Below, in pieces: positions 23,065 to 39,667 of a stretch of 43,101 nucleotides of DNA. Made by a program: the position numbers and the translations under genes. The notes under the pieces are model-generated. The model was given only the letters and a program-made list of their open reading frames with translations, did no database searches and was not told where the DNA came from. The stretch spans positions 1 to 43,101 of the forward strand of contig JAJZPQ010000032.1 of NCBI GenBank assembly GCA_021811085.1, written 5' to 3'. Each line of letters starts with the position of its first letter. The stretch's first letter is position 1. Source of the DNA: Pseudomonadota bacterium. GTDB taxonomy: Bacteria; Pseudomonadota; Gammaproteobacteria; Burkholderiales; SG8-39.

Positions 23065-23155
23065 TCGCGAGCGCCCAAGAAATCCGGTAGATTGCCGTCG
23101 TGAGGACGTCTTCTGGTCATTTCTGTGCAAGCTCACGACCCTGGGGTATTTCGAC

Positions 23156-23347
23156 GTGGATGAACTGATTCAACTGGTGGCGCAACGGGCGGGGATCTCT
23201 TCCGCCCAGGCAGCAGTTGCCGTTGCGACCATGTTGGGATATCTGACGGCGCGGCTTCCATCGCCGGTGGTCGGGCGCATCCGCGAACAATTGGGCGAGG
23301 TGCAATCCCCGCGTGAACGCGATGGCTGCGAAGGAGGTGTCAAGTGA
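23156..23347 (+). CDS. Small DUF2267-like helical protein
   Basis: 63 residues from GTG 23156: it begins MDELIQLVAQRAGISSAQAA and continues into LGYLTARLPSPVVGRIREQLG. This resembles small bacterial proteins starting MDELI that have one DUF2267-like helical repeat. The frame is open upstream (ATG 23051 and 23006 are possible starts), but those would place the coding region over the predicted regulatory boxes, and family members usually start at MDEL. The stop overlaps the response-regulator GTG by 4 nt, and the regulator's AAGGAGGT lies inside this gene, so the two are coupled. Function is unknown. Confidence 0.55.
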   Translation: MDELIQLVAQRAGISSAQAAVAVATMLGYLTARLPSPVVGRIREQLGEVQSPRERDGCEGGVK

Positions 23348-24503: not shown

Positions 24504-24509
24504 GCTGGC

Positions 24510-24680: not shown

Positions 24681-24698
24681 CCTCCCGTCGTCGCAAAT

Positions 24699-24787
24699 GT
24701 GACCTTGGTCACATGCAGGTCGTGACCTGCGACACGTCCAAGTCATGACTTTCGGGCACTTACATCAGATAGGCCGAGGCTTAAAAT
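24699..24787 (+). promoter_or_regulatory. Promoter module 1 (OmpA-like gene)
   Basis: GTGACC-TT-GGTCAC (24699-24712), second box GTGACCTGCGACAC (24722-24735), AAGTCATGACTT (24740-24751), -35 TTACAT (24760-24765), 16-bp spacer, -10 TAAAAT (24782-24787). In this copy CAGGTC-GT-GACCTG (24716-24729) is also a perfect inverted repeat. It is the only copy without an ATG close to the -10; the leader to the OmpA start is about 95 nt. Confidence 0.8.
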
Positions 24788-24890
24788 TCGTCTTTTTCTG
24801 AAATCTACCGGGCAGATGTGCACAACACTGCATCAATGGATCTGTACAGGAGTCGTCGGTATGACCACCAAACACCAGGAAGGACGCCCC

Positions 24891-25604
24891 ATGAAATCGA
24901 ACTATTCAGCAACAGAATGCGCGACGCGGTCGCTGTCGCTGCAATCGCTCAGCGCCGTTGCGCTCGCTATGGTCACCGGCCTGTTTGCGTCGGCCGCGTT
25001 TGCCCAGCCAAAGCCTGACGGCTATCTCCAGGCCCCGGTTTCCGGTGTCACCGTAAAAGACCCATTCGGCCTGTGCTGGCGCACCGGCTACTGGACGCCC
25101 GCGATGGCGACCAAGGAATGCGACCCCGACCTGGTGCCGAAGGAAGCGGCGCCCGCACCCGCGCCGGTCGCCGCGCCGCCGGCGCCGGCGCCAGCCCCAA
25201 TGCTGGCGTCCAAACCCGTGGCGGAAAAAGTCACGCTTTCGGCCGATACGCTGTTTGATTTCGACAAGTCGACCCTGCGCAGTGAAGGAAAGGCCAAACT
25301 CGACGACCTCGTCGACAAACTCAAAGCGGTCGCTGTGCAAACCATCATCGACATCGGCTACACCGACAGGATCGGCAGCAAGGCCTATAACCTGAAGCTT
25401 TCCAAGCGGCGCGCCGATACGGTCAAGGCCTATCTGGTGAGCAAGGGCGTGCCTGCCGACCGGATCCTGGCCAAGGGCAAGGGCAAAGCGGACCCGGTAA
25501 CGCGGCCAGGCCAGTGCAACGGCCACGTGAGCCGCAAGCTCATCCAGTGCCTGCAACCCGATCGCCGCGTTGAAATCGAGGTGATCGGCACGCGCACACG
25601 CTGA
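24891..25604 (+). CDS. OmpA family protein
   Basis: 237 residues from ATG 24891, preceded by AGGAAGGA; ATGs at 24816 and 24861 are in frame but lack such a site. The signal peptide ends near FASAAFA (residue 38). A proline/alanine-rich linker (about 85-115) is followed by an OmpA C-terminal peptidoglycan-binding domain (about 125-235): TLFDFDKSTLRSEGKAKLD, NLKLSKRRADTVKAYLVSKG and the closing RRVEIEV. There is no N-terminal beta barrel, so it is a periplasmic or outer-membrane-attached cell-wall anchor. Driven by promoter module 1 and ended by a good terminator. Confidence 0.88.
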   Translation: MKSNYSATECATRSLSLQSLSAVALAMVTGLFASAAFAQPKPDGYLQAPVSGVTVKDPFGLCWRTGYWTPAMATKECDPDLVPKEAAPAPAPVAAPPAPAPAPMLASKPVAEKVTLSADTLFDFDKSTLRSEGKAKLDDLVDKLKAVAVQTIIDIGYTDRIGSKAYNLKLSKRRADTVKAYLVSKGVPADRILAKGKGKADPVTRPGQCNGHVSRKLIQCLQPDRRVEIEVIGTRTR

Positions 25605-25624
25605 CGGCGCCTGTACGCAGTGTG

Positions 25625-25655
25625 AAGGCCCTGCCTTGCGGCGGGGCCTTTTTTT
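25625..25655 (+). terminator. Rho-independent terminator of the OmpA-like gene
   Basis: AAGGCCC (25625-25631) pairs with GGGCCTT (25644-25650) around a 12-nt loop, followed by a run of seven T. Confidence 0.85.
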
Positions 25656-25688
25656 ATGACTGTGCGGCTTGCGCCTCGATCGCCGCGC

Positions 25689-26129
25689 TTACTTGCCGTG
25701 GCGGCTGGGAAACAGCCGCGAGGCCTGCCACAAATAGAATTTCACCGGATTCGAGGAGATCAGCGCGTTGCCGCCGCTGTCCACGACTTGCGCTTCGAGG
25801 GTATGCTCTCCGCGCGTGATCCCGGACAATTTGAAGCGCGTCGCGCTTCGCACCGATATCTGGCGGCCGTCGAGGATCAGCGTGATTCGATCCCCGGCGC
25901 GGGCGCGCAGGGCGGGCGAAACGGCGACCGTCACCGCCACATTGCCGGCATTGTTGAATACCGTTGAACCGCCCGCCGGTTTCACCACCGCAATCGAGTC
26001 ATAGGAAGAGGTCATTCCCGATTGCGCACCCGCGTCGATCGCATATGCGCCCGCGAGCACTGCGGCGAGCGCCAGTGAAACGCCGCCAGCGAGAATCGTA
26101 AATCGGCTTGCTTTTCTCATCGTCTTCAT
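25689..26129 (-). CDS. Exported hypothetical protein with Ig-like fold
   Basis: 146 residues. Signal peptide or anchor MKTMRKASRFTILAGGVSLALAAVLAGAYA, then a beta-rich domain: AVVKPAGGSTVFNNAGNVAV, AGDRITLILDGRQI, RGEHTLEAQVVDSGGNALIS. This pattern is like the Ig-like modules seen in small periplasmic proteins of betaproteobacteria. It is convergent with the OmpA gene and divergent from promoter module 2. A perfect 6-bp stem (AGGCGC-TTGT-GCGCCT, 26153-26168) lies just upstream of its start. Function is unknown. Confidence 0.65.
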   Translation of the reverse strand: MKTMRKASRFTILAGGVSLALAAVLAGAYAIDAGAQSGMTSSYDSIAVVKPAGGSTVFNNAGNVAVTVAVSPALRARAGDRITLILDGRQISVRSATRFKLSGITRGEHTLEAQVVDSGGNALISSNPVKFYLWQASRLFPSRHGK

Positions 26130-26343
26130 ACGGTGTAACGACCGTCAATCGGAGGCGCTTGTGCGCCTGCCCCGTGGTATGGACAAAGAACGCCGCCGTG
26201 CCACGCCCGCCCCATTTCCGGCTTGTCGTCGGCCGGCTTGAAATCTGGCGTGCATCCGTGGTGCGTGCATACGGAGATGATAACCGCGATGTCGGGTTTG
26301 ATCGAATGGAATTCATTGTGCGCATAGACCCAGCGCGGCGCAA

Positions 26344-26432
26344 GTGACCTTGGTCACATACAGGTCGTGACCCGGGACACGTCCAAGTCATGACTTTCGG
26401 GCGCTTACATCAGATAAGCCGAGGCTTAGAGT
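26344..26432 (+). promoter_or_regulatory. Promoter module 2 (YfdX-like gene)
   Basis: GTGACC-TT-GGTCAC (26344-26357), GTGACCCGGGACAC (26367-26380), AAGTCATGACTT (26385-26396), -35 TTACAT (26405-26410), 16-bp spacer, -10 TAGAGT (26427-26432). An ATG begins 8 nt after the -10 (26440), near the predicted start of transcription; it opens a frame (MDARAKTTPRRS) continuous with the downstream gene. Box centres lie at about -89, -66 and -49. Confidence 0.82.
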
Positions 26433-26523
26433 TCGACTCATGGACGCACGGGCAAAGACAACGCCGCGACGTTCAAACCCGATAGATCAATACGAACCTG
26501 AATTCACTTTGAAAGGAACACCC

Positions 26524-27222
26524 ATGAAACCGAAACTCATCCTCAAGCCCCTGACGGCAGCCGTCCTGATCGCCACCGCGCAACTCTCCGGTGTCGCGTT
26601 CGCACAGACCACGAAAGCACCCGCCGCGCCCGCGGCGCAAGCGGCGCCTGCGCCGGTGTCCGAAGAATCGCAATTGCATTTCGGCAAAGCCATTGAGGCC
26701 TTCGCAAGGAAGGACTACAACACCGCCGCCGGCGAGATCCGCAAGGCGACCGGCTACATGCGCCGGGAAGCCGGCCGCGTCACCCGCACTGCGAGGCAGG
26801 AACTCAACAGCTCGGCGTCCGAACTCGACAAGCTTGCCGCTTCTGTCGAGAAGGGCGGGGTCAAAGACGAGAAATCGATGGAAAAAGATTTCGCCAGAGC
26901 CAACCACGCACTCGCCCTGGCCCATCGCGCCGAGGCGGCCGAATCGTGGACACGCAAGCAATACAACCAGGCCGGCCGCGAGCTCAAGGAGGCGGCTCGC
27001 GACCTGGAACGCGCCGCGGGCTGGGCCGGCGCGCAAGCGAAGGCAGGCGCCGCCGGAGCGGTGGCCGGTACCGACGCGCTCGGCGACAAGCTCGCCACCG
27101 GTGCAACGTGGACCAGCGATGAAGTTGGCCGAGGCTTCGATGCGCTGGGACATGCGCTGAACGAACTCGGACACGAGATCGGTGCGAAGCAACAGGCCGC
27201 GCCGCTGAAACCGGGTTCGTAG
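26524..27222 (+). CDS. YfdX family exported protein
   Basis: 232 residues from ATG 26524, which has AAAGGA seven bases upstream and starts a signal peptide (MKPKLILKPLTAAVLIATAQ, cleavage near AFAQ). The mature protein is helical and charged: HFGKAIEAFARKDYNTAAGE, RKATGYMRREAGR, ANHALALAHRAEAAESW. This resembles the YfdX family, stress-linked proteins that in E. coli belong to the EvgA acid-stress response. It is paralogous to the C-terminal half of the 39702-40838 protein. The frame stays open up to ATG 26440 right at the promoter, so a 28-residue N-terminal extension is possible. A stem without T-run follows at 27232-27259. Confidence 0.72.
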   Translation: MKPKLILKPLTAAVLIATAQLSGVAFAQTTKAPAAPAAQAAPAPVSEESQLHFGKAIEAFARKDYNTAAGEIRKATGYMRREAGRVTRTARQELNSSASELDKLAASVEKGGVKDEKSMEKDFARANHALALAHRAEAAESWTRKQYNQAGRELKEAARDLERAAGWAGAQAKAGAAGAVAGTDALGDKLATGATWTSDEVGRGFDALGHALNELGHEIGAKQQAAPLKPGS

Positions 27223-27231
27223 CCGACTGGA

Positions 27232-27259
27232 TTTGCCTATCGCTTTCGCGATAGACAAA
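27232..27259 (+). terminator. Stem-loop after the YfdX-like gene
   Basis: CTATCGC (27237-27243) pairs with GCGATAG (27248-27254) around TTTC, and flanking TTTG/CAAA extend the stem with one mismatch. There is no T-run, so it may be a weak terminator or an mRNA end-protecting stem. Confidence 0.45.
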
Positions 27260-27410
27260 CATGACGTGCAGGTTCGGAGTCGATTCTTCCGGATTACCGC
27301 GCCGGGCGCAGCGGGAAATGCTGACGCCGTTATGGGCGGGCTGGAATGACTGGGTTGAATGAGGGGGGCTTAATGATTGATGAAACCGATTGTTGCAGAA
27401 CCGTTAGCCA

Positions 27411-28049
27411 GTGAATAGCCTGCTCGCTACGGTCCACCCCTACATCGTCCAATACGGTTACGGCGCGCTGTTCGGTGTGCTGTTCGCCGAGTCGTTTGGG
27501 TTACCGTTGCCGGGCGAGACCTTCCTCGTCGCCGCGTCGTTCCTCGCCGTACAGGGCCAGCTCAACATCTGGCTCGTGGGTCTGATGGCATGCGCGGCGG
27601 CGGTGCTCGGCGACAACGTTGGCTATGCCATTGGCCGCTTCGGCGGCCGCAGGCTGGTCGCTCGCCATGGCGCGCGCGTAGGCATCAGCGCCGGGCGGCT
27701 GAATCAGGCGGAGCGTTTCTTCGCGCATTACGGCGCGGAAGTCGTCATCGTCGCGCGTTTCTTCCCACTGCTGCGCCAGCTCAACGGCATCGTTGCAGGC
27801 AGTGCCCAAATGGACTGGAAACGCTTTGCAGTCTACAACGCGCTGGGCGGGCTCCTTTGGGTCGGCGCATGGAGTACGGGCGTCCACTATTTCGGTCAGC
27901 AGATTGCAGTATGGCTGCTGCGGGCTCATACGGCAGAATTGTGGCTGGCGGGCACGCTGGCGCTGCCCCTGCTCGCCGCCGCAGCTTACTGGGTCATTTC
28001 GAAACGATCGCGCAACCGACGCCGAGACCCAAATGCAAACCGGAACTGA
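27411..28049 (+). CDS. DedA family membrane protein
   Basis: 212 residues from GTG 27411. DedA/SNARE-associated signatures are present: FAESFGLPLPGETFLVAASFLA near the start, GDNVGYAIGRFGGRRLV, the arginine-containing ARFFPLLRQLNGIVAGSAQM, and a glycine-rich WVGAWSTGVHYFGQQI. Five to six hydrophobic segments are seen. DedA proteins are inner-membrane proteins linked to lipid-carrier flipping and to resistance to membrane stress. It lies between the YfdX-like gene and promoter module 3 with its own ~190-nt upstream region, in which no clear promoter is seen. Confidence 0.88.
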   Translation: MNSLLATVHPYIVQYGYGALFGVLFAESFGLPLPGETFLVAASFLAVQGQLNIWLVGLMACAAAVLGDNVGYAIGRFGGRRLVARHGARVGISAGRLNQAERFFAHYGAEVVIVARFFPLLRQLNGIVAGSAQMDWKRFAVYNALGGLLWVGAWSTGVHYFGQQIAVWLLRAHTAELWLAGTLALPLLAAAAYWVISKRSRNRRRDPNANRN

Positions 28050-28138
28050 TCGATGGCGACGGCACGCGCGCCGGCGGATGTCGGGTCGATGACCCCATTA
28101 CGATTGAACGCCCATACGGAAGGTCCAGCGCGGCGCAG

Positions 28139-28227
28139 GTGACCTTGGTCACATACAGGTCGTGACCCGGGACACGTCCAAGTAATGACTTTCGGGCGCT
28201 TACATCCGCCGGCCCTAGGCTTAAAGC
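28139..28227 (+). promoter_or_regulatory. Promoter module 3 (ferritin-like gene)
   Basis: GTGACC-TT-GGTCAC (28139-28152), GTGACCCGGGACAC (28162-28175), AAGTAATGACTT (28180-28191, one mismatch), -35 TTACAT (28200-28205), 16-bp spacer, -10 TAAAGC (28222-28227). The gene's ATG is 7 nt after the -10, leaving no room for a Shine-Dalgarno sequence. Confidence 0.8.
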
Positions 28228-28233
28228 TTTGAT

Positions 28234-29076
28234 ATGCCAGACCCGGATACAAATCTACCCATCGTCGCGCCGCATCCCTGGTCGATCGACCAGATTCCGT
28301 TCGAGCGGATTGTGCACGAGCGGCTGGCGGACGAGGATGTCTGGTTTTATGTACTTGCCGCCGCATCGTTCGTGGAGAGTTTGTCTGATTTGTACGCACA
28401 CAACCTGCTGGGCCACATGGAGGACGATGCCGACGCCGGCCAATGGCTGCGCGAGCGCTGGGAACCGGAGGAGTTGCAGCATGGACGCGCGCTGCGCCGC
28501 TACGTGGAGACGGTGTGGCCTGCATTTGATTGGCAGACCGCGTTTGATGGATTCTGCGCCGACTATCGCCCGCATTGCAAACCCGAACTGCTGGAGCCCA
28601 CGCGCGCGCTGGAGATGGTTGCGCGTTGTGTCGTCGAAGCGGGTACCTCGGGCCTGTATGGCCTGCTGCAGCAGATCAGCCCGGAACCGGTGCTGACCAC
28701 GCTGGTGCGGCATATCCGCAACGATGAAGTGGGACACTACAAATACTTTTACCATTTTTTCCTGCGCTACCTCGAGATAGAGCGCCCGTCACGCTGGCAG
28801 GTAGCGCGCGTGTTGCAGCAGCGCTTGGGCGTGATCGGCCAGGAGGACGCCTACCTGGCGTTGAAAAACGTATTTGCGCTACGCAACCCCGGGCAGACCT
28901 TCAGCCCACAGGATTTTCAGCGGTTTCAACACCAGGCGGGGCAGTGGGCGCGCGCCGACTATCCTTACGAAATGACGGTGAAAATGCTGCTCAAACCGCT
29001 GCGCCTGCCTGGCTTCGTCAACCACATGGCGTTGCCGCTGCTGCTGCACCATGCGCGGCGCGTGGTGGCACCGTGA
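28234..29076 (+). CDS. Ferritin-like diiron protein
   Basis: 280 residues, helical. A complete set of carboxylate-bridged diiron ligands can be placed: E48 (FVESLSDLY), E80 and H83 (EELQHG), E135 (VVEAGTSGLYG), E165 and H168 (DEVGHYKYF). This matches the ferritin/acyl-ACP-desaturase-like superfamily. Such proteins are oxidases, desaturases or oxygen/peroxide-consuming enzymes; the substrate cannot be told. There is no signal peptide, so it is cytoplasmic. The ATG lies at the expected transcription start of promoter module 3, so translation is probably leaderless. An inverted repeat GCGGGC/GCCCGC follows the stop (about 29081-29112). Confidence 0.8.
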   Translation: MPDPDTNLPIVAPHPWSIDQIPFERIVHERLADEDVWFYVLAAASFVESLSDLYAHNLLGHMEDDADAGQWLRERWEPEELQHGRALRRYVETVWPAFDWQTAFDGFCADYRPHCKPELLEPTRALEMVARCVVEAGTSGLYGLLQQISPEPVLTTLVRHIRNDEVGHYKYFYHFFLRYLEIERPSRWQVARVLQQRLGVIGQEDAYLALKNVFALRNPGQTFSPQDFQRFQHQAGQWARADYPYEMTVKMLLKPLRLPGFVNHMALPLLLHHARRVVAP

Positions 29077-29202
29077 TGCGGGCTAGTGACGACAAGCGCC
29101 GGCCCGCTGCTTTGATCGAACCGTTTTTGCATTGATGGCGCCCGGATAAACGCTAGTATTGGACGGGCATCTCAGCCAAATGGAACCTGTGAGCGCGTCC
29201 TG

Positions 29203-30429
29203 ATGAAACCTGCGCCACCCGCGCCGCATGCCGCGGGCTACCACGGCGACGACCGCTGGCTGCTGCTGTGGGCGGCGCTGATCGGCGTGGTCGGCGCGCT
29301 CGCCACGGTGGCCTTCCACGAGGGCATGGCCTTCACCGAGCGGCTGGCCACGCAGCATCCTGGCAGCCTGGTCAGCGCCGCCGAAGCGCTGGCGCCGTGG
29401 CGGCGCGCGATCACGCCGGCGCTGGGCGGCATTGCGGCGGGCCTGTTCCTGTGGCTGGCGCAGCGTGCCGCGAACGGCAGGAAGCAGTTGGACTATCTCG
29501 AAGCCATCGCCGTCGGCGACGGCCGCCAGGACGTGCGCGGCACCTTGCTGCACAGCCTGTCGTCCTTGTGCACCATCGGCTCCGGCGGTTCGATCGGCCG
29601 CGAGGGCGCGATGGTGCAGCTGGCAGCGGCCACCGGTTCCTGGATCGGGCGGATCGGGCGCTTCGACGGCGACGACCTGCGCCGCTGGCGCACTCGGAGA
29701 CTGCTTCGACGCCATCCGATACCTCACCACATTTGGCGCGATGTGACGCAACGCGCAGTTGCGCTGAGACGGCTGGATGCGGTGCAGATGGCGCACCTGC
29801 GCGAGTTGACGACGTGGTTTCTCGATCGCAAATCGATTACCGGGGTCCGGGGCCTGGAGGTGACGCTGCCGATGCGGGTGGCGGTGGCCGCACAGGCCAG
29901 TTTGTTGATCCTGAACCTCGGAGCCGAGTACTTCGACGGCTGGGTCGAGGTCATACTCTATCCTGGCGCGTTCCGCGTCAGCCGCGAGGAAGTGGACTCC
30001 TCGGGACTGGTTCACAATGAAGACCGGGCTTTGAGTGGCGAGTCATGGTTGCGCGGTCCGGTGGTTTTGTCCTGGGATGACGTGGAACGAGATACCTACG
30101 GCGGCCGCGCCGGCTGCAACGTGGTGCTGCACGAGTTCGCCCATAAACTGGATGGTCTCAATGGAAGAACGAACGGGATGCCGCCACTGCATCGCGATAT
30201 GAGTCGCGAACACTGGATCGAGGCCATGAGCGCGTCCTACGATGCCCTGTGCCTGAAAGTGGCAGCAGGAGAACCGGTCTTTATCAATCCTTATGCCGCC
30301 ACCAGCCCGGTGGAGTTTTTCGCGGTGGTGAGCGAGTATTTCTTTACCGCACCGGACATTCTGGAAAAAGAATGCCCCGGCGTCTATCGGCAACTCGCGC
30401 TGTTTTACCGGCAGGAGCCATTGCATTGA
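29203..30429 (+). CDS. Chimeric protein: truncated ClC chloride channel fused to MtfA peptidase
   Basis: 408 residues in one open frame. Residues 1-160 match the first part of a bacterial ClC channel: a hydrophobic helix WLLLWAALIGVVGALATVAF, then DYLEAIAVGDG and the selectivity motif GSGGSIGREGAMVQL (126-140). The sequence then switches abruptly, at about residues 161-168 (nt ~29683-29706), to MtfA: RRHPIPHHIW, TGVRGLEVTLPMR, GWVEVILYPGAF and the zinc motif HEFAH (310-314), with a later glutamate in SPVEFFAVVSEYF. MtfA (M90 peptidase) is normally soluble and linked to sugar-uptake control through Mlc. Here its first residues and all later ClC helices are missing. The fusion probably arose by deletion between neighbouring genes; the peptidase part looks intact and would be membrane-tethered. 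Confidence 0.85.
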   Translation: MKPAPPAPHAAGYHGDDRWLLLWAALIGVVGALATVAFHEGMAFTERLATQHPGSLVSAAEALAPWRRAITPALGGIAAGLFLWLAQRAANGRKQLDYLEAIAVGDGRQDVRGTLLHSLSSLCTIGSGGSIGREGAMVQLAAATGSWIGRIGRFDGDDLRRWRTRRLLRRHPIPHHIWRDVTQRAVALRRLDAVQMAHLRELTTWFLDRKSITGVRGLEVTLPMRVAVAAQASLLILNLGAEYFDGWVEVILYPGAFRVSREEVDSSGLVHNEDRALSGESWLRGPVVLSWDDVERDTYGGRAGCNVVLHEFAHKLDGLNGRTNGMPPLHRDMSREHWIEAMSASYDALCLKVAAGEPVFINPYAATSPVEFFAVVSEYFFTAPDILEKECPGVYRQLALFYRQEPLH

Positions 30430-30606
30430 TTCCCGGCCGCGATGACGTTTGGTCGAAAGGTTTTATCCGAGCCTCCTTAGAATTTGCCTGGCGGACATTC
30501 TTGCGACGACGCCCATGACAGATAGTTGCGGACGTTGACCTTCCTGTGCTTCCGGCCAACCCCGAGTAGAGGCCGCCGGCCCGCCGCCAGGTCCGGCGCG
30601 GCGCAA

Positions 30607-30695
30607 GTGACCTTGGTCACATGCAGATCGTGACCTGGGACACGTCCAGATCATGACTTTCGGACGCTTACATCCGCCACGCCGGGGCCTAGAGT
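30607..30695 (+). promoter_or_regulatory. Promoter module 4 (small ORF and csbD-like gene)
   Basis: GTGACC-TT-GGTCAC (30607-30620), GTGACCTGGGACAC (30630-30643), third box weakened (AGATCATGACTT, 30648-30659), -35 TTACAT (30668-30673), 16-bp spacer, -10 TAGAGT (30690-30695). ATG 30703 lies 8 nt after the -10. Confidence 0.8.
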
Positions 30696-30702
30696 TGAAG
30701 TC

Positions 30703-30810
30703 ATGGACACGCAGATTCGTGAGCAGGAAACGGGCATCCACGAACATTATGGGCGTCCCGGCTATTGGGCGGACGAAAAGAAGCGCGAAACAGCAACATC
30801 AGATCATTAG
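30703..30810 (+). CDS. 35-codon ORF at the start of module 4 transcript
   Basis: The ATG lies where transcription should begin. The peptide opens MDTQIREQ, echoing the MDAR openings after modules 2 and 5, and ends at TAG 30808-30810, 72 nt before the CsbD-like gene. It may be a leaderless leader peptide or simply a conserved 5' end of the RNA. No known family. Confidence 0.35.
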   Translation: MDTQIREQETGIHEHYGRPGYWADEKKRETATSDH

Positions 30811-30882
30811 CGCGAAAACGGAGGGCTTGGGGAACCATATTGTGCCCGCGCCCGTTTATCGAACAACGGCAAGGAGAGCGAA

Positions 30883-31059
30883 ATGAACCGGAACCGCATG
30901 GAAAGCAAATGGAAGCCATCCAAGGACAACGCCGATGAGCAGCCGTGGAACGAACCCATCATCGACGACCAGCTCGTCAACAGTATCCGAAACACCTACG
31001 GAATTGCGGACGACGAAACGGAATGCCAGCTCACCGACTGGCAGGCGCGCCTGAAGTAA
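30883..31059 (+). CDS. CsbD-like small stress protein (diverged)
   Basis: 58 residues; ATG 30883 is preceded by AAGGAGAG. The ends match the CsbD family (MNRNRMESKWKPSKDN at the start, RNTYGIADDETECQLTDWQ at the end). The central acidic section typical of the family is shortened and altered, so it may be decaying. CsbD proteins are abundant small general-stress proteins of unknown biochemistry. It is expressed from promoter module 4. Confidence 0.68.
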   Translation: MNRNRMESKWKPSKDNADEQPWNEPIIDDQLVNSIRNTYGIADDETECQLTDWQARLK

Positions 31060-31071
31060 ATCGGGCGGCGC

Positions 31072-31203
31072 CAGTCGGGCATTGTCGAGTACGCCGCCAA
31101 GCTGTGGCGCCATACGTTGTATCGCGACGCCCGTCCCGAGTACGTGGAATCGTTCTGGAACCTGGTGAATTTGGATTTCGTGGCGAAGAACCACGGCGGC
31201 TGA
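31072..31203 (+). pseudogene. Coding-like fragment, family not recognised
   Basis: A 43-codon open stretch reads QSGIVEYAAKLWRHTLYRD and continues to VNLDFVAKNHGG before TGA 31201. It has protein-like composition but no start codon or ribosome site, and is followed immediately by GlgX and HAD remnants. It is probably another gene scrap. Confidence 0.3.
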
Positions 31204-31372
31204 TTCATTTCGATTTGCCCCCGGTGGCGCCTGGGGCTCGGTGGCATCTGGCCGTGGACACCTCACGCGAAGCGCCGAAAGATATGTTTGCCGCGGACGA
31301 GCAAACGCTTTGAAAAATACGCAAACCTACCACCTGAGCCGGCGGTCCAGCGCCATACTGCCGGCTCGATGA
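31197..31372 (+). pseudogene. GlgX (glycogen debranching enzyme) C-terminal remnant
   Basis: The sequence RLIHFDLPPVAPGARWHL, followed by AVDTSREAPKDMFAADEQTL, resembles the C-terminal domain of GlgX. After a frame change near 31313 the terminal TYHLSRRSSAILPAR continues to TGA 31370-31372. The first ~90% of the gene is missing, and the remaining piece is frameshifted. Confidence 0.65.
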
Positions 31373-31409
31373 ACGAACATGAGTTGCAGGCGGCGTTGAC
31401 GGAGGCCGA

Positions 31410-31466
31410 ATGAAAAAACCATTCCCGCCAACGACGTTGTTTCTGGATATCAACGGTAGCCTGTAA
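31410..31466 (+). pseudogene. HAD-family hydrolase N-terminal remnant
   Basis: Eighteen codons, MKKPFPPTTLFLDINGSL, match the start of HAD-like hydrolases (usually FLDIGGVL) before TAA. Just upstream an ATGA overlap with the GlgX remnant opens a 14-codon frame (31369-31413). The rest of the hydrolase gene is absent. Confidence 0.5.
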
Positions 31467-31513
31467 CTGAATGAGGAGGAGTGATGTTGAAAGGTGTTGT
31501 TTAAGGAGTCGCA

Positions 31514-32041
31514 TTGACGCTAGTCGTTGCTCTGATCGGCGCTTACGCGCTGGTGCAAAGCGGGCTTATTCCGGCCAATGCCGACGCAAAACCCGGCCGG
31601 CTGGAAGCCTGGATGGCTCGCACATCGTTAGATGCAACACTGCGTCGCGATGCCCCAAAAGAGCAAAATCCGGTGGCGCTGACGGAGCAGAATCTCCTTG
31701 AAGGCGTTCATCTGTTTGCGCAGAACTGCGCGGTTTGCCATGGTTCCGCGAAGGGCACAGCCTCACTTTCCACAATAGCGAAAGGCGAGTATCCACCGCC
31801 TCCACAATTGGCGACCGATGGCGTTGAAGACGACCCGGAAGGTGTTTCGTTCTGGAAGATCAAGCACGGTATTCGTCTGACGGGCATGCCTTCGTTCGGA
31901 TACTCCTTCAGCGACCAACAGATATGGACGCTTGCGCTGTTTCTGAAGCATATGGACAAACTGCCGCCCGCAGTACAACAGACGTGGCTGCAAGTTCGGA
32001 ATTGGCCGGTGGTGTCCGTGAACCAGGCTGACCGGAAATAG
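31514..32041 (+). CDS. c-type cytochrome, 5' end disrupted by a nonsense codon
   Basis: 175 residues from TTG 31514. Heme-binding CAVCH is at 72-76 and a candidate axial methionine at M125 (LTGMPSFGY). A hydrophobic anchor (TLVVALIGAYALVQSGLI) leads the protein. The original start was probably ATG 31484 behind GAGGAGGAG: it reads MLKGVV, then TAA at 31502-31504, and continues in frame as GVALTLVV. The new TAA forms part of AAGGAG (31503-31508), five bases before the TTG, so re-initiation could keep the protein made. It should be a periplasmic, membrane-anchored single-heme electron carrier. Neighbouring gene remnants raise the possibility that it is decaying. Confidence 0.72.
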   Translation: MTLVVALIGAYALVQSGLIPANADAKPGRLEAWMARTSLDATLRRDAPKEQNPVALTEQNLLEGVHLFAQNCAVCHGSAKGTASLSTIAKGEYPPPPQLATDGVEDDPEGVSFWKIKHGIRLTGMPSFGYSFSDQQIWTLALFLKHMDKLPPAVQQTWLQVRNWPVVSVNQADRK

Positions 32042-32061
32042 TCTATTCGACGTCTCATGCG

Positions 32062-32088
32062 TTTACCGGCAGGAGCCATTGCATCGAT
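32062..32088 (+). repeat. Duplicated scrap of the mtfA 3' end
   Basis: Twenty-six of 27 bases match 30404-30430, the last codons and stop of the chimeric ClC-MtfA gene. It lies ~150 bp before the P-type ATPase gene. A second short match (GACATTCTTGCG and following CCCATGA) links 30494-30518 to the ATPase start at 32220-32244. Confidence 0.6.
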
Positions 32089-32240
32089 TGCGGTCATCTG
32101 TAAAACGGCGGCGTAAGTTCTTGTCGGTTTCAACCTCCGGTAATGACCCTGCCGAATTCGAGCCCCACCGGGTTCGAAGAGCAACTTGCCCGCGCTTCTG
32201 ATATTGGATTCATCCGGTCGACATTCTTGCGGGAACCCCC

Positions 32241-34679
32241 ATGAAAAAGCTCAACGCCGATAGCACCTCGACGCCCGCAAGCAAACCGGTTGCGGGTGGA
32301 GGCTCCGCTCTTGCGCCCGCGCCGCCCGCCGTAACCGCCTTACCTGAAGAGTCAGCAAGCGTCGTTAGAAACGGCCCACCGAGCGGTCTCACCGCTGACG
32401 AAGCCCGCCGTCGGCTGGAGCAGATCGGCCCGAATACCGTGGCGGATACGGCGCTGCATCCGCTGCGCAGGGCGCTCGCCAAACTCTGGGCGCCCGTTCC
32501 ATGGATGCTCGAGGCCGCGATTCTGCTCGATGTGGTGCTCGGCAAGTATGTGGAGGCCGCGATCATCGGCGGGCTGCTGCTGTTCAACGCCGCGCTCGGG
32601 TATTTCCAGGAAGGACGCGCGCAGGCGACCCTTGCCGCACTGAAGTCGCGGCTCGCGTTGAACGCGTCGGTCCGGCGCGACGGTATCTGGAACATCGTGC
32701 CCGCCGCCGAGCTGGTGCCGGGCGACGTGGTCAAGCTGTCGCTGGGTGCCGTCGTCGCTGCCGACGTGCATCTGGTCGAGGGCTCGGTCCTGCTCGACCA
32801 GTCCATGCTCACCGGCGAATCGATACCCATTGAAGCGGGCCCCGGCGTGCGGACGTATGCGGGAGCGCTGGTGCGGCGCGGCGAAGCCGTGGCGGAGGTC
32901 ACGGCGACCGGAGCGCGCACCAAGTTCGGCCGCACCGCGGAGTTGGTCCGCACCGCGCATGTCGTCAGCTCCCAGCAGAAAGCCGTTCTGCGCGTGGTGC
33001 GTAATCTCGCCCTGTTCAACGGCGTTCTCATCGCCATCCTGGTGGCCTATGCGTATGCCATCGCGTTGCCGTCCGCCCAGATCATTTCGCTCGTGCTCAC
33101 GGCGGTTCTCGCATCGATCCCGGTCGCGCTGCCGGCCACCTTTACCCTCGCGGCGGCGGTCGGCGCACAGGTCCTGGCCAAGCTGGGGGTCCTGCCGACG
33201 CGGCTCTCCGCGGTGGACGAAGCGGCGACGATGGATGTCCTGTGCGCGGACAAAACGGGTACGCTGACCAACAACGAACTGAAGGTGACCAGCGTCCGCG
33301 CCATGCGCGGCTTCGACGAAGCGCAGGTCATGGGAATGGCGGCGCTGGCGAGCTCGGACGGCGGGCAGGATCCCGTCGATGGCGCCATTCGCGCCGCCGC
33401 CTTGCGCAGCAGCGCGTCCGATCTGCCGAAGCTGATCGGGTTCGTGCCGTTCGATCCCGCCACGAAGATGTCCGAGGCGACGGTGACCGTTTCGAGCGGC
33501 GCCACGCTGCGCGTGGTGAAGGGAGCCTTTGCCGCCGTCGCCGGGCTCACGCAGGAATCGCCCGATGCGTCTGCGGCGGCGAACGAACTCGAGGCGCAGG
33601 GCTTCCGCGTGCTGGCCGTCGCAGTGGGCGTGCCGCAGGCAATGAGGCTGGCGGGAATCATCGCGCTCAGCGATCCGCCGCGATCCGACTCGGCGGCGCT
33701 GATCGCGGAACTCCACACGCTGGGCGTACGCACCGTGATGGTGACGGGCGATGCGCCGGCCACGGCAGCCATCGTGGCGCGTGCGGTGGGACTGGAAGGC
33801 GCGGTCTGTCCACCCGGTCCTATGCCCGATGTAGTACGCGCCGGGGACTTCGCGGTCTTCGCCGGCGTCCTTCCGGAGGGCAAGTACAAGCTCGTGCAGG
33901 CGTTCCAGCAGGGAGACCACACCGTCGGCATGTGCGGCGACGGCGCCAACGACGCGCCCGCGCTGCGCCAGGCGCAGATGGGCATTGCCGTATCGTCCGC
34001 GAACGACGTGGCCAAGTCGGCCGCCGGCATGGTGCTGACCCGACCCGGACTCGCCGGCATCGTTGCCGCCGTCAAGGAAGGCCGCATCACGTTCCAGCGC
34101 ATCCTGACCTATGCCCTCAACACCATCATCAAGAAGATGGTGACGGTGCTCTTTCTGGCGGTCGGCCTGGTCATGACCGGCCATGCGATCCTGACTCCCA
34201 TGCTGATGGTCATCATCATGGTGACCGGCGATTTCCTGACCATGTCCCTGACGACGGATAACGTTCGTCCGTCCCCGATGCCCAACGCATGGCGAATCGG
34301 CAACCTGACGATTGCGGGCGCCTTCATGGGACTTTGCCTTCTGGCCTTTTGCACCGCTGTTCTGGCCATCGGCCATTTCAGCATGGGGCTGGGACCCGCG
34401 GCGCTCGATACGCTGGCTCTTGTCGCCCTGGTATTCGGCAGCCAGACGACGCTCTATGCGATTCGCGAACGCCAGCGCCTGTGGTCACGCCCAAGCCCAT
34501 GGCTCAACCTGTCGTCCCTGGCCAATATTCTGATTATCTCGACATTGGCGTCAGCCGGAATCCTGATGTCGCCCGTGCCGATGCCGGTTGTGGCCGGCAC
34601 GCTTGCCGCGGCGGTCGGTTTCGGATTGGTTCTGAATGTGGTGAAAATTCCGATATTCAAGCGACTCAGGATCGCGTAG
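32241..34679 (+). CDS. P-type ATPase, plasma-membrane H+-ATPase (P3A) type
   Basis: 812 residues. Actuator motif MLTGES (about 192), phosphorylation site D337 in CADKTGTLTNNE, hinge motif CGDGANDAPALR (about 565) and about ten membrane segments are present. The sequence ATFTLAAAVGAQVLAKLGVLPTRL (in part) and the length resemble bacterial homologues of the fungal/plant H+-ATPase. The short N-domain, lack of CPC-type metal motif and lack of N-terminal metal-binding domain argue against Cu/Zn pumps. It would export protons at the expense of ATP, useful in acid stress. The first ~45 residues are low-complexity. It has no promoter module of its own. Confidence 0.88.
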   Translation: MKKLNADSTSTPASKPVAGGGSALAPAPPAVTALPEESASVVRNGPPSGLTADEARRRLEQIGPNTVADTALHPLRRALAKLWAPVPWMLEAAILLDVVLGKYVEAAIIGGLLLFNAALGYFQEGRAQATLAALKSRLALNASVRRDGIWNIVPAAELVPGDVVKLSLGAVVAADVHLVEGSVLLDQSMLTGESIPIEAGPGVRTYAGALVRRGEAVAEVTATGARTKFGRTAELVRTAHVVSSQQKAVLRVVRNLALFNGVLIAILVAYAYAIALPSAQIISLVLTAVLASIPVALPATFTLAAAVGAQVLAKLGVLPTRLSAVDEAATMDVLCADKTGTLTNNELKVTSVRAMRGFDEAQVMGMAALASSDGGQDPVDGAIRAAALRSSASDLPKLIGFVPFDPATKMSEATVTVSSGATLRVVKGAFAAVAGLTQESPDASAAANELEAQGFRVLAVAVGVPQAMRLAGIIALSDPPRSDSAALIAELHTLGVRTVMVTGDAPATAAIVARAVGLEGAVCPPGPMPDVVRAGDFAVFAGVLPEGKYKLVQAFQQGDHTVGMCGDGANDAPALRQAQMGIAVSSANDVAKSAAGMVLTRPGLAGIVAAVKEGRITFQRILTYALNTIIKKMVTVLFLAVGLVMTGHAILTPMLMVIIMVTGDFLTMSLTTDNVRPSPMPNAWRIGNLTIAGAFMGLCLLAFCTAVLAIGHFSMGLGPAALDTLALVALVFGSQTTLYAIRERQRLWSRPSPWLNLSSLANILIISTLASAGILMSPVPMPVVAGTLAAAVGFGLVLNVVKIPIFKRLRIA

Positions 34680-34837
34680 ACCCTTGACGCGATGCTTATC
34701 GCTGATCGGCGGTTTCAATCGGTCCTGTTACGAGGAGGTGCCGATTATATGTGCCTGTACCGCTCAAGATGCAGCGTGCCCTGCACGGATACGCTTTCGC
34801 TCGCGCGACGGCTTGGAGGGGCTTAGTCGAGGCGTCG

Positions 34838-37618
34838 CTAGGAAATCGATCCCGCAGATGGCGGCCGTTCGAGGCGCTTATCCGACTGCAGGAGCGCTAG
34901 AAACTGATCCGCCGGCAGCGGGCGGCTGAAATAATAGCCTTGCATCTCATCGCAGCCTTCCGACGCTAGGACATCGACCTGCTCGCGCGTCTCCGCTCCT
35001 TCGGCGACCACGCTCAGACCGAGGCTGTGGCCGAGAGCGATGACCGCCCTGACAATCGCAATGCTGTGCTTGTCCTCGATCATTCGACGGACGAACGACT
35101 GATCCACCTTCAATATGTCGACCGGAAACAAATGCAGATAGCTCAATGAGGAGTAACCGGTTCCGAAGTCGTCCACCGCAAACCGCGCCCCTATTGCTTT
35201 CCATTCGTGCAGAACATCGGAGACGCGCGCCGGGTCCTTCATCAGAGCGCTTTCCGTGATTTCGAGTTCGATCTGGTCGGGCTTCACGGGAGCGTCGCTC
35301 AGCGCTCGGCTGACCTGCGCCGTGAACTCGGGCTTGTTGAGCTGATGCGGCGAGACATTGACGGACACCCGCAACGCACCCCAGCCCCGCGCATGCCATT
35401 GCGCGAGCTGCCGGCTCGCCTCCTGCACGACCCAGGCGCCGACTTCCCCGACGAGTGCGGTCTGCTCCAGCACGGGGATGAATACCCCGGGAGGCACGAT
35501 TCCCCGCTCGGGGTGCCGCCAGCGCAGCAAGGCTTCGGCACCGGCGATGATCCCGCTCCTTAAATCCACACGCGGCTGGTAATGCAGGACGAACTCCTGC
35601 TTTTCTACGGCGCGGTAGAGTTCGGATTCGATCGTAAGGCGCTCGGTCGCCGCCGCGTGCGCCTGTGGAGAGTAGAAATGGAACGTATTCTTTCCGGCCG
35701 CCTTGGCCGTATCGAGCGCGAGCCCCGCATTGACGAGCAGCGCATCCGCGCCCGGCGCGTCGTCCGGCCCGACACTGATCCCGACGCTCGCGGTAAGGTG
35801 CAGATCGCGTTGCGCAACGGCCAGGGGCTGCGCCACCGTCCCAAGCAGTTTGCGCGCGACTCCGGCAATGTCGTTCGGAGAGGTGACGTCATCCAGGAGC
35901 ACGCCGAACTCGTCTCCGGCTATGCGCGCCACCGTGTCATCGGGCCGCACGGCCCGCGCCAGCCGGCCGGCGATCGCCTTCAGCGTTTCGTCGCCGGCTG
36001 CGTGCCCGAGCGCGTCGTTGATCGTCTGGAAGCGGTCCAGATCGAAGTACAGCACCCCCACATGCCGCGCATGGCGCGCCGCTCGCACCAGGGCGCGCTC
36101 CGTCTGATCGGCGAAGAGCGATCGATTCGCGAGCCCGGTCAATGCGTCGTGCTGCGCCAGATAGGCCAGTCGTTCTTCGGCCGCGACCCGCTCGCTGATA
36201 TCGGTGATAAAGCCCAGCACCGCCGGCGCGTCCTTCCAGCGGGTCAGCGCGACGTTCGCCTCGACCCATTTGGTCCGATCGTCCCTGGTCAACATGCGCA
36301 CGACCGAAATCCCGGCGACCTCCTCTCCCTGGATGCGCCTGCGGTTGCGGTCCTCGACCGAAGGCCGGTCTTCGCTGTGTATAAAATCCGAAAAATTCCG
36401 CCCGATGAGCTCCTCGCGGGCGTAGCCCAGCATGCCCGCCAGTTTTGGATTGACGAATTTCACTGTCCCGTCCTGCACGACCAGCACGCCCTCGTTGGCG
36501 CTTTCGACAAGCAGGCGATACTTTTCCTCCTCGGCACGCAATGCCGCCTCGCGCTGCTCGATCGATACCGCCATGTCGTCGAACGCGCGCGCCAACTGGC
36601 CGAACTCACCGGCCTGATGAGGCAATCCGGTACGCGCCGAAAGGTTTCCCTGGCGCAGTCGGTCCGCCGCGAACGCCAGGCGGTTCACCGTGCGTACGAT
36701 CAGGACAGATCCAAGCAGCCACGTGGCCATGACGGTGATCAACACCACGATCCCGCCCAGAGTGAGGTTCAAGGCGAGCATCTGCTTGACCTGACTCAGG
36801 ACCGAGTCTTCTGGGATGTCCAGGATCACCTCGGCGGCCCGATCTCCCTCGCTATCGCGGAGGGAGGCGAATGCATACAGTCGCCCCGTGCCGCTGCGCG
36901 TGACCTCGCGGGCGGTTCCCCGGCTCTTGTCAAGGGCGGTCCGGAGGACGACTTCGTCGGGGAATCGCTTGCCTAACCAATCCCCATCATCCGGTTGCCG
37001 CATGAAGATGCGCCCGGTCATATCGACCTTGGTCAATATCGCGCCCGGCGGGAGGTCTTCTCGGACATTGATCTCTTGTTGATTGAACCAGTCCAGGGAG
37101 ATCGATGCGAATAGAACGCGCTCCACGCGCGCATTCGCGTCAACCATCGGGTAGGCGATGACCAGAACAGGTTTGTGCACGATGCCGCCGATCTGGTAGT
37201 CGCCGATCGAGAACGACCGCGTTTCGAGCGCGCGCCGAAAGTAGGCGCGGTCAGAAAAATTCAACCTTTCTGATGTGGGAATCGCGCTGCAGTACAAATC
37301 GCCGTTGGGGTCGATCACCCCAAAGTTTGCATACCGGAGGTACTGCGTCTGCAGTTGGGCCAGGGATGCGGCGCATCGCTCCGGAGGCCCGCGCCAGATA
37401 TGCGGCATTTTCCCGAGGGCGACGAGCATCTCGCGGCCCGCCGCGATCAGGTTCCGTTCTTCACGAGCGATAATATGAACGGTCTGCCGGATATAGCGAA
37501 GCGCTTCTTCTTCCTCTAGGGTGCGCTGTTGTTGATAGGAATAGAACAGCAACGCTGCGAGAGGGATCGTCGCGAACGCGATCAGCAAAGCCAGCTTTGC
37601 ACGGATGCCGGTCAACAT
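34838..37618 (-). CDS. Cache-HAMP-PAS-GGDEF-EAL c-di-GMP signalling protein
   Basis: 926 residues. Transmembrane segments near 10-27 and 287-310 bracket a periplasmic double-Cache sensor; HAMP (about 310-365), PAS (about 370-490), GGDEF (about 495-660) and EAL (about 670-915) follow. The cyclase signature is AGDEF instead of GGDEF, with an I-site-like RPDD five residues before it. The EAL domain keeps EALLRW, NVSPHQL, ELEITESALM, DDFGTGYSSL and KVDQSFVR, so phosphodiesterase activity is likely, and the cyclase half may be active or regulatory. The ATG 37618 is preceded, a few bases upstream, by a run of nine G on the coding strand. Confidence 0.92.
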   Translation of the reverse strand: MLTGIRAKLALLIAFATIPLAALLFYSYQQQRTLEEEEALRYIRQTVHIIAREERNLIAAGREMLVALGKMPHIWRGPPERCAASLAQLQTQYLRYANFGVIDPNGDLYCSAIPTSERLNFSDRAYFRRALETRSFSIGDYQIGGIVHKPVLVIAYPMVDANARVERVLFASISLDWFNQQEINVREDLPPGAILTKVDMTGRIFMRQPDDGDWLGKRFPDEVVLRTALDKSRGTAREVTRSGTGRLYAFASLRDSEGDRAAEVILDIPEDSVLSQVKQMLALNLTLGGIVVLITVMATWLLGSVLIVRTVNRLAFAADRLRQGNLSARTGLPHQAGEFGQLARAFDDMAVSIEQREAALRAEEEKYRLLVESANEGVLVVQDGTVKFVNPKLAGMLGYAREELIGRNFSDFIHSEDRPSVEDRNRRRIQGEEVAGISVVRMLTRDDRTKWVEANVALTRWKDAPAVLGFITDISERVAAEERLAYLAQHDALTGLANRSLFADQTERALVRAARHARHVGVLYFDLDRFQTINDALGHAAGDETLKAIAGRLARAVRPDDTVARIAGDEFGVLLDDVTSPNDIAGVARKLLGTVAQPLAVAQRDLHLTASVGISVGPDDAPGADALLVNAGLALDTAKAAGKNTFHFYSPQAHAAATERLTIESELYRAVEKQEFVLHYQPRVDLRSGIIAGAEALLRWRHPERGIVPPGVFIPVLEQTALVGEVGAWVVQEASRQLAQWHARGWGALRVSVNVSPHQLNKPEFTAQVSRALSDAPVKPDQIELEITESALMKDPARVSDVLHEWKAIGARFAVDDFGTGYSSLSYLHLFPVDILKVDQSFVRRMIEDKHSIAIVRAVIALGHSLGLSVVAEGAETREQVDVLASEGCDEMQGYYFSRPLPADQFLALLQSDKRLERPPSAGSIS

Positions 37619-38139
37619 CTAGCCCCCCCCCGCTGACACAAGCGACGCGCCTGTGCCGTTCGAAGGCTTTGGATTTGTTCCGCGGCGCCACGCTAGGGCG
37701 TCGGGCCTCGAATTGGTGGAACAGCACTGTGATGCATTTTAATTCCGGCCAGGTGAATCTCGGTGCGATTGGAGTTGACCCGGTTTCGCGGACACTTTTC
37801 AATGTAGGGACTGAAGGAGGTTCGATAGGGTAACAGTTGTCTTAACTCCGTCCGAGTAACGAAGCCTATAAGTAGAATACACCATAGTCCATCGAACCAA
37901 TATATCAACCATATAATCGATATGGTTATGCGTGCCAGCTCTTGCGCGGATTGCCAGTAAATGGGGGATGCTGTAAGTCACCTAACCTGACCGTCAAAGT
38001 AAATCGGCGCAAACTTATTGTCATTCAAGTAACGTACAGGTGGTCTAATGCGCGCATATAACCTCGCTGAGCGTTGGGGGAAGTCCAGATAACAGCAGAC
38101 TGACGACGAAGCAGCTTTCTTTTCGGATGCCCGTGCACA
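37619..38139. other. 521-bp region without a supported gene, lower GC
   Basis: From about 37,700 the sequence is visibly richer in A and T than its neighbours. Only short open frames (up to ~70 codons) without ribosome sites are present. It includes the poly-C run (37623-37631) belonging to the leader of the GGDEF-EAL gene. No promoter module, IS end or tRNA is seen. Confidence 0.5.
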
Positions 38140-38469
38140 TTGCCGCCAAGATCGCGGCACCAGAGTGACCTATATCCACAAAGAAATTGGACGCAAATCG
38201 TTGCCGACCTGCTCGCGTTTTCGTTTGAGGTGGTGGAGGAAAGTCCCTCGGAGGGGCTAGGAGAACTGGTAGAGCCGCAATTTCAAGCGGAGATGGCGGA
38301 GCGGATCGGCAAGGCGGGTGAAAAGCTGTTCTATCTCGGCGGAATCAAGGGGGAATTCACGCAGCTGGCGAACAAGCATTATCGGAAACTGGAGAAGGAA
38401 CTCGGGAATACGAATCCAGAACCGCTTTACCAGGCGTCGACTCTCACTGAATCGGGCTTGAAGAAATAA
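38140..38469 (+). CDS. Hypothetical protein, doubtful
   Basis: 109 codons. The last ~85 (from VADLLAFSFEVVEESPSEG) have an amphipathic, charged composition that looks protein-like (AEMAERIGKAGEKLFYL, QLANKHYRKLEKELGN), while the first 20 do not. No good ribosome site precedes the ATG, and the likely start is further in. It lies in the AT-richer patch and may be a gene remnant. No family recognised. Confidence 0.3.
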   Translation: MPPRSRHQSDLYPQRNWTQIVADLLAFSFEVVEESPSEGLGELVEPQFQAEMAERIGKAGEKLFYLGGIKGEFTQLANKHYRKLEKELGNTNPEPLYQASTLTESGLKK

Positions 38470-38690
38470 AGCGATGGGGTACAACCTTCTTCTCTGCGGA
38501 TTGGACACGGTCGAATGCTGTTACCACCTGCGAGCACCTACCGGCGAGGACTGATCAAAGGCGATTCTTGACCTCATGACCGACAAGCGCGTAATGGGCG
38601 CGTTCACCGTGAGCGACGTTGAAAGTCCCCGGGGTGGCCCGCGACCGGGGCGGTGGCCGCGGCGGCGCGACCCTTGCTCACCCCGCTAGT

Positions 38691-38863
38691 GAACACCGCC
38701 TTGTTTGGATCGATCGGCGTGAAATAGAGCGCCACACTACCGGGCGTAGCGAACATGATGATCGCGTAGAAACCACGTGCTTCGAAAAGCTTAATCTCGA
38801 GAACCTCCTCCTCCACCCAACGGTTCAGCGAATGGGCACGCGGATGAAGCTGCTACTGCCCGA
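38691..38863. repeat. Long repeat, copy B, upstream of promoter module 5
   Basis: Homologous to 24510-24680 with constant offset apart from a 2-nt insertion. On the minus strand a 70-codon frame (38604-38816) reads FEARGFYAIIMFATPG then FTPIDPNKAVF, similar to the peptide of copy A. It is likely a remnant rather than a working gene. Confidence 0.6.
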
Positions 38864-38950
38864 TCTTGCGTCACCGCTGACGCCACCTGCCACGCAGCCG
38901 AGCTCCTAACTTGCATTGCGCTGGATACTGCAGTCCAGGAGTCGCCACAA

Positions 38951-39039
38951 GTGACCTTGGTCACTCGCAGATCGTGACCTGAGACACGTCCAAGTCATGA
39001 CTTTCGGGCGCTTACATCCGCCGGGCCGAGGCCTAGAGT
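38951..39039 (+). promoter_or_regulatory. Promoter module 5 (DUF1269/YfdX-like operon)
   Basis: GTGACC-TT-GGTCAC (38951-38964), GTGACCTGAGACAC (38974-38987), AAGTCATGACTT (38992-39003), -35 TTACAT (39012-39017), 16-bp spacer, -10 TAGAGT (39034-39039). ATG 39047 lies 8 nt after the -10 and opens MDARMKTIPRHS, in frame with the first gene. Confidence 0.82.
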
Positions 39040-39115
39040 TCGAAGCATGGACGCGCGGATGAAGACCATACCGCGACATTCAGTACCGAGTAATCAACCC
39101 ATAAAGGAATACATC

Positions 39116-39667
39116 ATGAACATGACCAAAACCGATATCGCCGTCGCCGTCTATGACCTGCACACCCAGGCCGAAACTGCGGTGAAGGCATTGCAGCGTG
39201 CCGGATTCGACATGAAGAAAATCTCGATCATCGGCAGGGACTACCACACCGAGGAACACGTCGTCGGCTTCCTCAATGCCGGGGACCGGGCCAAGGTATT
39301 CGGCAAATTCGGCGCATTCTGGGGCGGCTTGATGGGCGTGCTGTTCGGCTCCGCGATGATGTTCGTCCCGGTGGTCGGCCACGTGATCGTTCTGGGCCCG
39401 CTCGCGGCCGCGCTGTTCAGCGGTCTGGAAGGCGCCGCACTGGTAGGGGGCATCAGCGCCCTGGCCGGCGCCCTGATGGCGGTCGGGATTCCCAAGGACT
39501 CCGTGCTGCGCTACGAAACCGCGCTGAAGGCGGACAAGTTCATGCTGATCGTGCACGGCGACGAGGCGGAGATCAACCGCGCCAAGGGACTGCTGAACAT
39601 ATCCGGCCTGTCCTCCTTCGATCATCACCGCGCCGAGGACGAAGTCGCCGCGGCAGTCCACCAGTAA
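39116..39667 (+). CDS. DUF1269-like glycine-zipper membrane stress protein
   Basis: 183 residues from ATG 39116 (AAAGGAA upstream). An N-terminal alpha/beta domain (AVAVYDLHTQAETAVKAL then GFDMKKISIIGRDYH) resembles general-stress proteins of the GSP17M/DUF1269 group. A glycine-rich hydrophobic pair of segments follows (GAFWGGLMGVLFGSAMMFV and LGPLAAALFSGLEGAALVG), then a C-terminal KADKFMLIVHGDEAEINRAK unit. It is probably inserted in or associated with the inner membrane. The frame is open back to ATG 39047 at the promoter, giving a possible 23-residue extension shared in style with the 26440 gene. The YfdX-like gene follows after 34 nt. Confidence 0.72.
   Translation: MNMTKTDIAVAVYDLHTQAETAVKALQRAGFDMKKISIIGRDYHTEEHVVGFLNAGDRAKVFGKFGAFWGGLMGVLFGSAMMFVPVVGHVIVLGPLAAALFSGLEGAALVGGISALAGALMAVGIPKDSVLRYETALKADKFMLIVHGDEAEINRAKGLLNISGLSSFDHHRAEDEVAAAVHQ

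Follow-up and report, generated by a model that had tools for sequence, protein, structure and literature searches.

We analysed a window of 43,101 nt, positions 1 to 43,101 of contig JAJZPQ010000032.1 (C21) of Pseudomonadota assembly GCA_021811085.1 (Burkholderiales, SG8-39), in which an 89-bp promoter element built from GTGAC-type palindromic boxes occurs five times. To judge from its sequence, each copy is very probably an activator-operated promoter, that is, a tandem operator for the NarL-type response regulator encoded close by, held in fixed register with the -10 hexamer. The evidence is the repetition of a single box at a constant period, the recurrence of the box-to-promoter distance in diverged relatives, and the association of arrays with the regulator gene across genomes.

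Five copies of one promoter layout

All five copies lie on the forward strand (Table 1) and follow one control-element layout, as described in an earlier note on this DNA. Box 1 is GTGACCTTGGTCAC in every copy, and 23 bp past its first base comes a second box (5/5), each time with one mismatch to GTGACN4GTCAC. The TTACAT -35 hexamer and the 16-bp spacer that follows it are unchanged throughout, and a -10-like hexamer starts at +83 from the start of box 1 in all five. Pairwise identity is 83-92% across the 89 bp that run from box 1 through the end of the -10. In the window, GTGACCNNGGTCAC with up to two mismatches has 15 matches, compared with a mean of 1.5 in shuffled sequence; none of 100 shuffles reached 15. 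The 4,478,932-base genome contains the exact box-1 word GTGACCNNGGTCAC five times, every time at this locus, and a genome-wide scan of the kind proposed in the earlier note, using a sequence model built from the five copies (R1), returned these five and no sixth. The loose box GTGACN4GTCAC with one mismatch was found 137 times genome-wide, versus 91 times for the reversed control. Hence, lone weak boxes mean little, and the array is the informative feature.

The repeat unit and its period

We collected 71 loci encoding relatives of the neighbouring response regulator, selected by the regulator gene with the boxes ignored; the window brings the set to 72. Across these loci, GTGACN4GTCAC with at most one mismatch gave 124 words, versus 14-63 for six control palindromes. 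Pairs of boxes were spaced by 23 bp in 40 cases (6 of them in the window), by 22 bp in 13 and by 46 bp in 12; all other spacings were represented five times or fewer. For five control palindromes, no spacing had more than five pairs. Given these peaks, we conclude that the unit is one 14-bp box, GTGACyTTsGTCAC, repeated at a 23-bp period.

This replaces the three different palindromes envisaged in the earlier note with units of one box, the last of them reduced to a half-site. In each window copy, the first unit is perfect, the second has one mismatch, and the third is a half-site (ATGAC) beside the -35. The third unit, at +46, reads ATGACTTTCGGGCG (alternative ends GGGCA and GGACG). The sequence previously taken for a third palindromic box, AAGTCATGACTT, is exact in three of the five copies, is fully self-complementary in only 2 of 18 diverse arrays, and straddles the third 23-bp unit; we therefore ruled it out as a separate site. 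The left half of the third unit, TGAC, is retained in 17 of the 18 arrays, and the right half is not retained.

Promoters in register with the boxes

We scored the position of TAnnnT relative to 248 strong-box readings on both strands. The hexamer starts at +60 in 27 readings and at +83 in 22, the mean over all offsets being 1.5; these two sets overlap where one promoter has two strong boxes. With the window excluded and one count per locus, the +60 offset was found at 16 of 47 loci and the +83 offset at 17 of 47, against a background mean of 0.79 and a maximum of 5. Since +60 and +83 differ by 23, they correspond to two- and three-unit promoters in one register, with the -10 starting 37 nt past the start of the proximal unit. 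Two-unit versions occur in the close family (L003:12336 and L008:16078), and a two-unit array precedes the regulator operon both in the window (23028, with the -10 at +60) and in relatives. Because the register and the -10 position recur in diverged relatives, the proposal in the earlier note of one control element before several genes, forming a local regulon, is supported.

Across the 18 arrays, the boxes and the -10 are conserved and the -35 is poorly conserved between genera, as would be expected of activator-dependent promoters. The same pattern bears on the possibility that the regulator binds the arrays but represses, with the proximal unit covering the -35. The proximal unit does end one base short of TTACAT, as such a repressor site might; however, a poorly conserved -35 between conserved boxes and -10, and the addition of units upstream in 23-bp steps, would both argue for activation, and we consider repression improbable.

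Linkage to a two-component system

The gene proposed to encode the box-binding protein specifies a response regulator with a receiver and a GerE helix-turn-helix domain, and a HisKA_3 kinase gene adjoins it. Among proteins in the PDB set, the closest full-length relatives of the regulator are VraR/LiaR, DesR and DevR; its DNA-binding domain is closest to that of DevR/DosR, with an identical recognition helix, TVKNYVSR. Sequence for this helix is available at 62 of the 72 loci. Those with Y in the helix have a box pair no more than 2 kb from the regulator gene in 26 of 40 cases (window included); those with H (Variovorax and the like) do so in 1 of 13, and those with other helices in 0 of 9. 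Four control patterns gave two pairs over all 62 helix-covered loci.

We then compared the distribution of arrays and regulator among genomes. Among 40 genomes, that of the window and those of relatives, four have an R1 match at E<=0.01 and two have the regulator at 1e-60; these two, G000 and G010, hold the two best R1 matches. The R1 matches in G006 (E 0.003; no regulator at 1e-30) and G015 (E 0.007; just a 46% partial match) were taken as chance. For 399 genomes of the order, a model built from the 18 arrays (R2) found an array in seven, and the regulator was present in eight and both in six (P 3.6e-11). Over the class (369 genomes), R2 has matches in G000 and G544, and the regulator occurs in G000 only; the G544 match lies inside a coding frame with no second box 23 bp away and was likewise attributed to chance.

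Several observations weigh against reading the arrays as operators of this regulator. The order-wide test is partly circular, as four of the seven array genomes (G000, G321, G337 and G181, judged by contig and position) trained R2; of the remaining three, G364 and G259 carry the regulator. The third, G083, has an array without the regulator (at 1e-30) or the kinase (at 1e-60). Conversely, G137 and G228 have the regulator and no R2 match. A perfect box lies 228 bp ahead of the aligned start of the regulator in G228, and G137 has no box within one mismatch in the stretch fetched. Among the Y-helix loci, 14 of 40 lack a box pair, and one locus, L019, has H in the helix yet has a pair. The contrast between Y and H also tracks lineage, and hence represents few events. 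Lastly, the third unit is only a half-site, with mismatches at 5 of 10 positions in every window copy. The G083 array (L102) is 85-91% identical to the window copies, and the gene behind it resembles the copy-2 gene of the window, as judged by eye; the case reflects either transfer of the promoter together with its gene or a gap in this 94%-complete genome.

The boxes can also be read as GTGA-N6-TCAC, and could then be sites for a Crp/Fnr-family regulator, arranged in tandem with the promoter-proximal one near -42, as known from tandem Crp/Fnr promoters. The half-sites fit the familiar Crp consensus, with the GTGA-N6-TCAC core in box 1 of all five copies, the genome has 13 Crp-type helix-turn-helix matches, and at six loci of relatives (L010, L012, L017, L019, L021 and L029) an array fronts a Crp/Fnr-like gene, that of L010 scoring below the Pfam cut-offs. 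However, none of the 13 matches is on C21, the exact box-1 word is confined to a single locus, the inner C and G of the box are conserved, and the arrays track the response regulator. In E. coli CRP, an arginine in the helix reads the first G of GTGA; the Crp-like proteins of the relatives have a SAETFCR-type helix that lacks this arginine, and would appear to be targets. We therefore disfavour a Crp/Fnr protein as the binder and consider this explanation unlikely.

Origin of the copies

The earlier note had conservation covering the regulatory DNA and stopping in the genes. Similarity does drop outside the element, but its end does not always fall at the gene: homology between copies has variable ends, and copies 2, 4 and 5 are alike over 178 nt that include the leader, with 61% and 77% identity to copy 2. 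Upstream of copies 1 and 5, about 200 bp are 73-75% alike (24504-24705 versus 38685-38888), which indicates an older, larger duplication common to both. Segmental duplication and promoter copying both fit the origin of the copies.

These homologous flanks of varying length, the high identity of the copies, and the presence of a similar copy in G083, which lacks the regulator, are what would be seen if the element were a mobile repeat or a promoter cassette that had been copied, its copies being alike through recent duplication and not through regulation. Against this, the box period and the -10 register persist where the rest of the sequence has diverged, every copy is co-directional with its genes, and none is found elsewhere in the genome. 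Duplication may explain how the copies arose, but not the conserved pattern, and we judge a repeat or cassette without a regulatory role the least likely of the alternatives considered.

Comparison with DevR/DosR and other known systems

The regulator and its arrays share several features with DevR/DosR of Mycobacterium tuberculosis, beginning with the identical recognition helix of this NarL-family protein. The DosR half-site consensus is GGGAC. The half-site here, GTGAC, differs from it at one base and is equally far from the dyad. The kinase also differs from the haem GAF kinases DevS and DosT: it has a dCache_1 domain, and its GAF_2 match (24.0 bits) is below the cut-off of 28.6. DosR contacts bases through K179, K182 and N183 (PMC4082495, available text); the regulator here keeps K182 and N183, but has G at the position of K179. 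DevR promoters have at least two close-packed sites, the proximal one overlapping the -35, with a strong primary and a weak secondary site that are bound cooperatively (PMC3029386, available text), and the arrays here likewise have at least two close-packed units with the proximal one at the -35. The view in the earlier note that no element with this layout is described is not supported: the exact box words were not found in the open-licence papers searched, bar one aptamer study, and further literature searches brought up no paper recognised as being about the element, but tandem palindromes with a proximal site at the -35 are the DevR/DosR promoter layout in that same source. Because the half-site, one contact residue and a kinase without an above-cut-off GAF domain all differ, we did not file the system under DevR/DosR; we read it as a putative local stress regulon, DevR-like in layout and not a DevR member.

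The OsdR regulon of Streptomyces coelicolor is similar in having a DevR-type regulator and palindromic sites at stress genes, but the OsdR box is AGGGCCGATCGGCCCT, unlike GTGACyTTsGTCAC; the text of that report lacks the word tandem and makes no statement on tandem sites (PMC5069765). The available text on the Burkholderia low-oxygen lxa locus, considered as a counterpart, contained nothing tied to the element (PMC9104464), and that of PMC12919924 showed no DosR consensus.

Proposed mechanism

The repeat unit, the 23-bp period, the -10 register, the linkage to the regulator and the helix identity were all computed; from them, we infer a scheme of phosphorylation, binding, cooperativity, activation and autoregulation in response to a signal. 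The divergently encoded kinase would phosphorylate the regulator, a dimer of which would bind the near-perfect distal box. Further dimers would then be drawn to the second box, which is weaker, and to the half-site next to the -35. The unit centres would fall near -88, -65 and -42 relative to the predicted start, and there these further dimers could contact RNA polymerase. The two-unit array before the regulator operon would provide autoregulation. The output would be a local envelope and stress gene set; in several of its members, translation apparently begins at an ATG that coincides with the transcription start or adjoins it.

A bolder version is conceivable, although we lean somewhat against it: a so far undescribed regulon of proteobacteria that functions in the manner of the dormancy regulator DevR/DosR, combining the DevR recognition helix with a shifted half-site and partly leaderless stress mRNAs, its arrays gaining and losing whole 23-bp units in register, and its cassette copied before new genes and into a genome without the regulator.

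With this proposal, a betaproteobacterial two-component system gains a concrete candidate operator, a promoter register and a list of targets. The natural two- and three-unit arrays in one phase offer a system for studying activator cooperativity, and the comparison of helices (Y versus H, and G at K179 of DevR) leads to a prediction about half-site choice.

Start codons

We scored the position of ATG relative to the start of the -10 in 60 arrays, deduplicated by sequence; a few of them are read on the reverse strand and probably arose by chance. An ATG lies at 12 nt in eight arrays and at 13 nt in 22, together 30 of the 60, and no other offset from 7 to 59 occurs more than four times. In the window, the ATGs at 26440, 28234, 30703 and 39047 lie 12-13 nt past the start of the -10. 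For six of eight Crp/Fnr-like genes, those of the loci listed above, the opening ATG lies 12-14 nt past this point and the alignment begins at residue one, which leaves no space for a ribosome-binding site. This suggests leaderless mRNAs in a proteobacterial regulon, with the ATG at or next to the predicted transcription start. Two points call for caution. Start sites commonly have CAT as their context in any case, and in several arrays the ATG 12-13 nt past the -10 opens just a short frame.

Target genes and neighbouring features

The earlier note described the genes behind the copies as five unrelated genes. The first genes do belong to different families, but the OmpA and YflT types point to envelope and stress as the theme of the targets. 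The helical protein behind copy 2 has a paralogue at 39702, downstream of the first gene of copy 5, with 60% identity (111/185). Two further assignments, of the helical proteins to YfdX and of the 58-aa open reading frame (ORF) to CsbD, had no Pfam support.

In relatives, the first ORFs behind arrays encode YflT-like proteins (tested against Pfam for L005 and otherwise assigned by N-terminal likeness), the helical protein, OmpA-like proteins, AcrB-type transporters, Crp/Fnr-like regulators and others. At seven loci (L009, L011, L014, L020, L023, L027 and L035), an AcrB-type transporter lies behind the array that follows the regulator, the assignment resting on Pfam for L020 and on N-terminal likeness for the other six; the predicted content of the regulon is switched between lineages. 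The Crp/Fnr-like targets hint at a regulatory cascade in the relatives that have them.

Table 1. Arrays, regulatory genes and first downstream genes in the window
Feature	Position	Strand	Details
Array copy 1	24699..24787	+	Units at 24699, 24722, 24745; -10 TAAAAT at 24782
Array copy 2	26344..26432	+	Units at 26344, 26367, 26390; -10 TAGAGT at 26427
Array copy 3	28139..28227	+	Units at 28139, 28162, 28185; -10-like TAAAGC at 28222
Array copy 4	30607..30695	+	Units at 30607, 30630, 30653; -10 TAGAGT at 30690
Array copy 5	38951..39039	+	Units at 38951, 38974, 38997; -10 TAGAGT at 39034
Two-unit array before regulator operon	23028..23093	+	Units at 23028, 23051; -10 TAGATT at 23088; layout recurs in relatives
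NarL-type response regulator, proposed box binder	23344..24093	+	Response_reg and GerE above cut-off; relatives DevR, VraR, DesR
Divergent sensor kinase, proposed partner	21108..22991	-	dCache_1, HisKA_3 and HATPase_c above cut-off
63-aa ORF ahead of regulator	23156..23347	+	Overlaps regulator start; weakly DUF2267-like, below Pfam cut-off
OmpA-family protein, first gene after copy 1	24885..25604	+	Family from Pfam; frame open from 24816
Helical, secreted-looking protein after copy 2	26440..27222	+	No Pfam family above cut-off; ATG 13 nt past -10 start
280-aa protein after copy 3	28234..29076	+	No Pfam family above cut-off; ATG 12 nt past -10 start
58-aa ORF after copy 4	30883..31059	+	No Pfam match; 35-codon ORF ahead at 30703
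YflT-domain stress-type protein after copy 5	39047..39667	+	ATG 13 nt past -10 start

The 63-aa ORF recurs before the regulator in L002-L005, and a leader ORF of 22 codons, also located before the regulator, shows weak conservation. Positions 29203-30429 form a single open frame that joins an N-terminal ClcB-like chloride channel part to an MtfA-like M90 peptidase, and represents either a fusion or a deletion scar.

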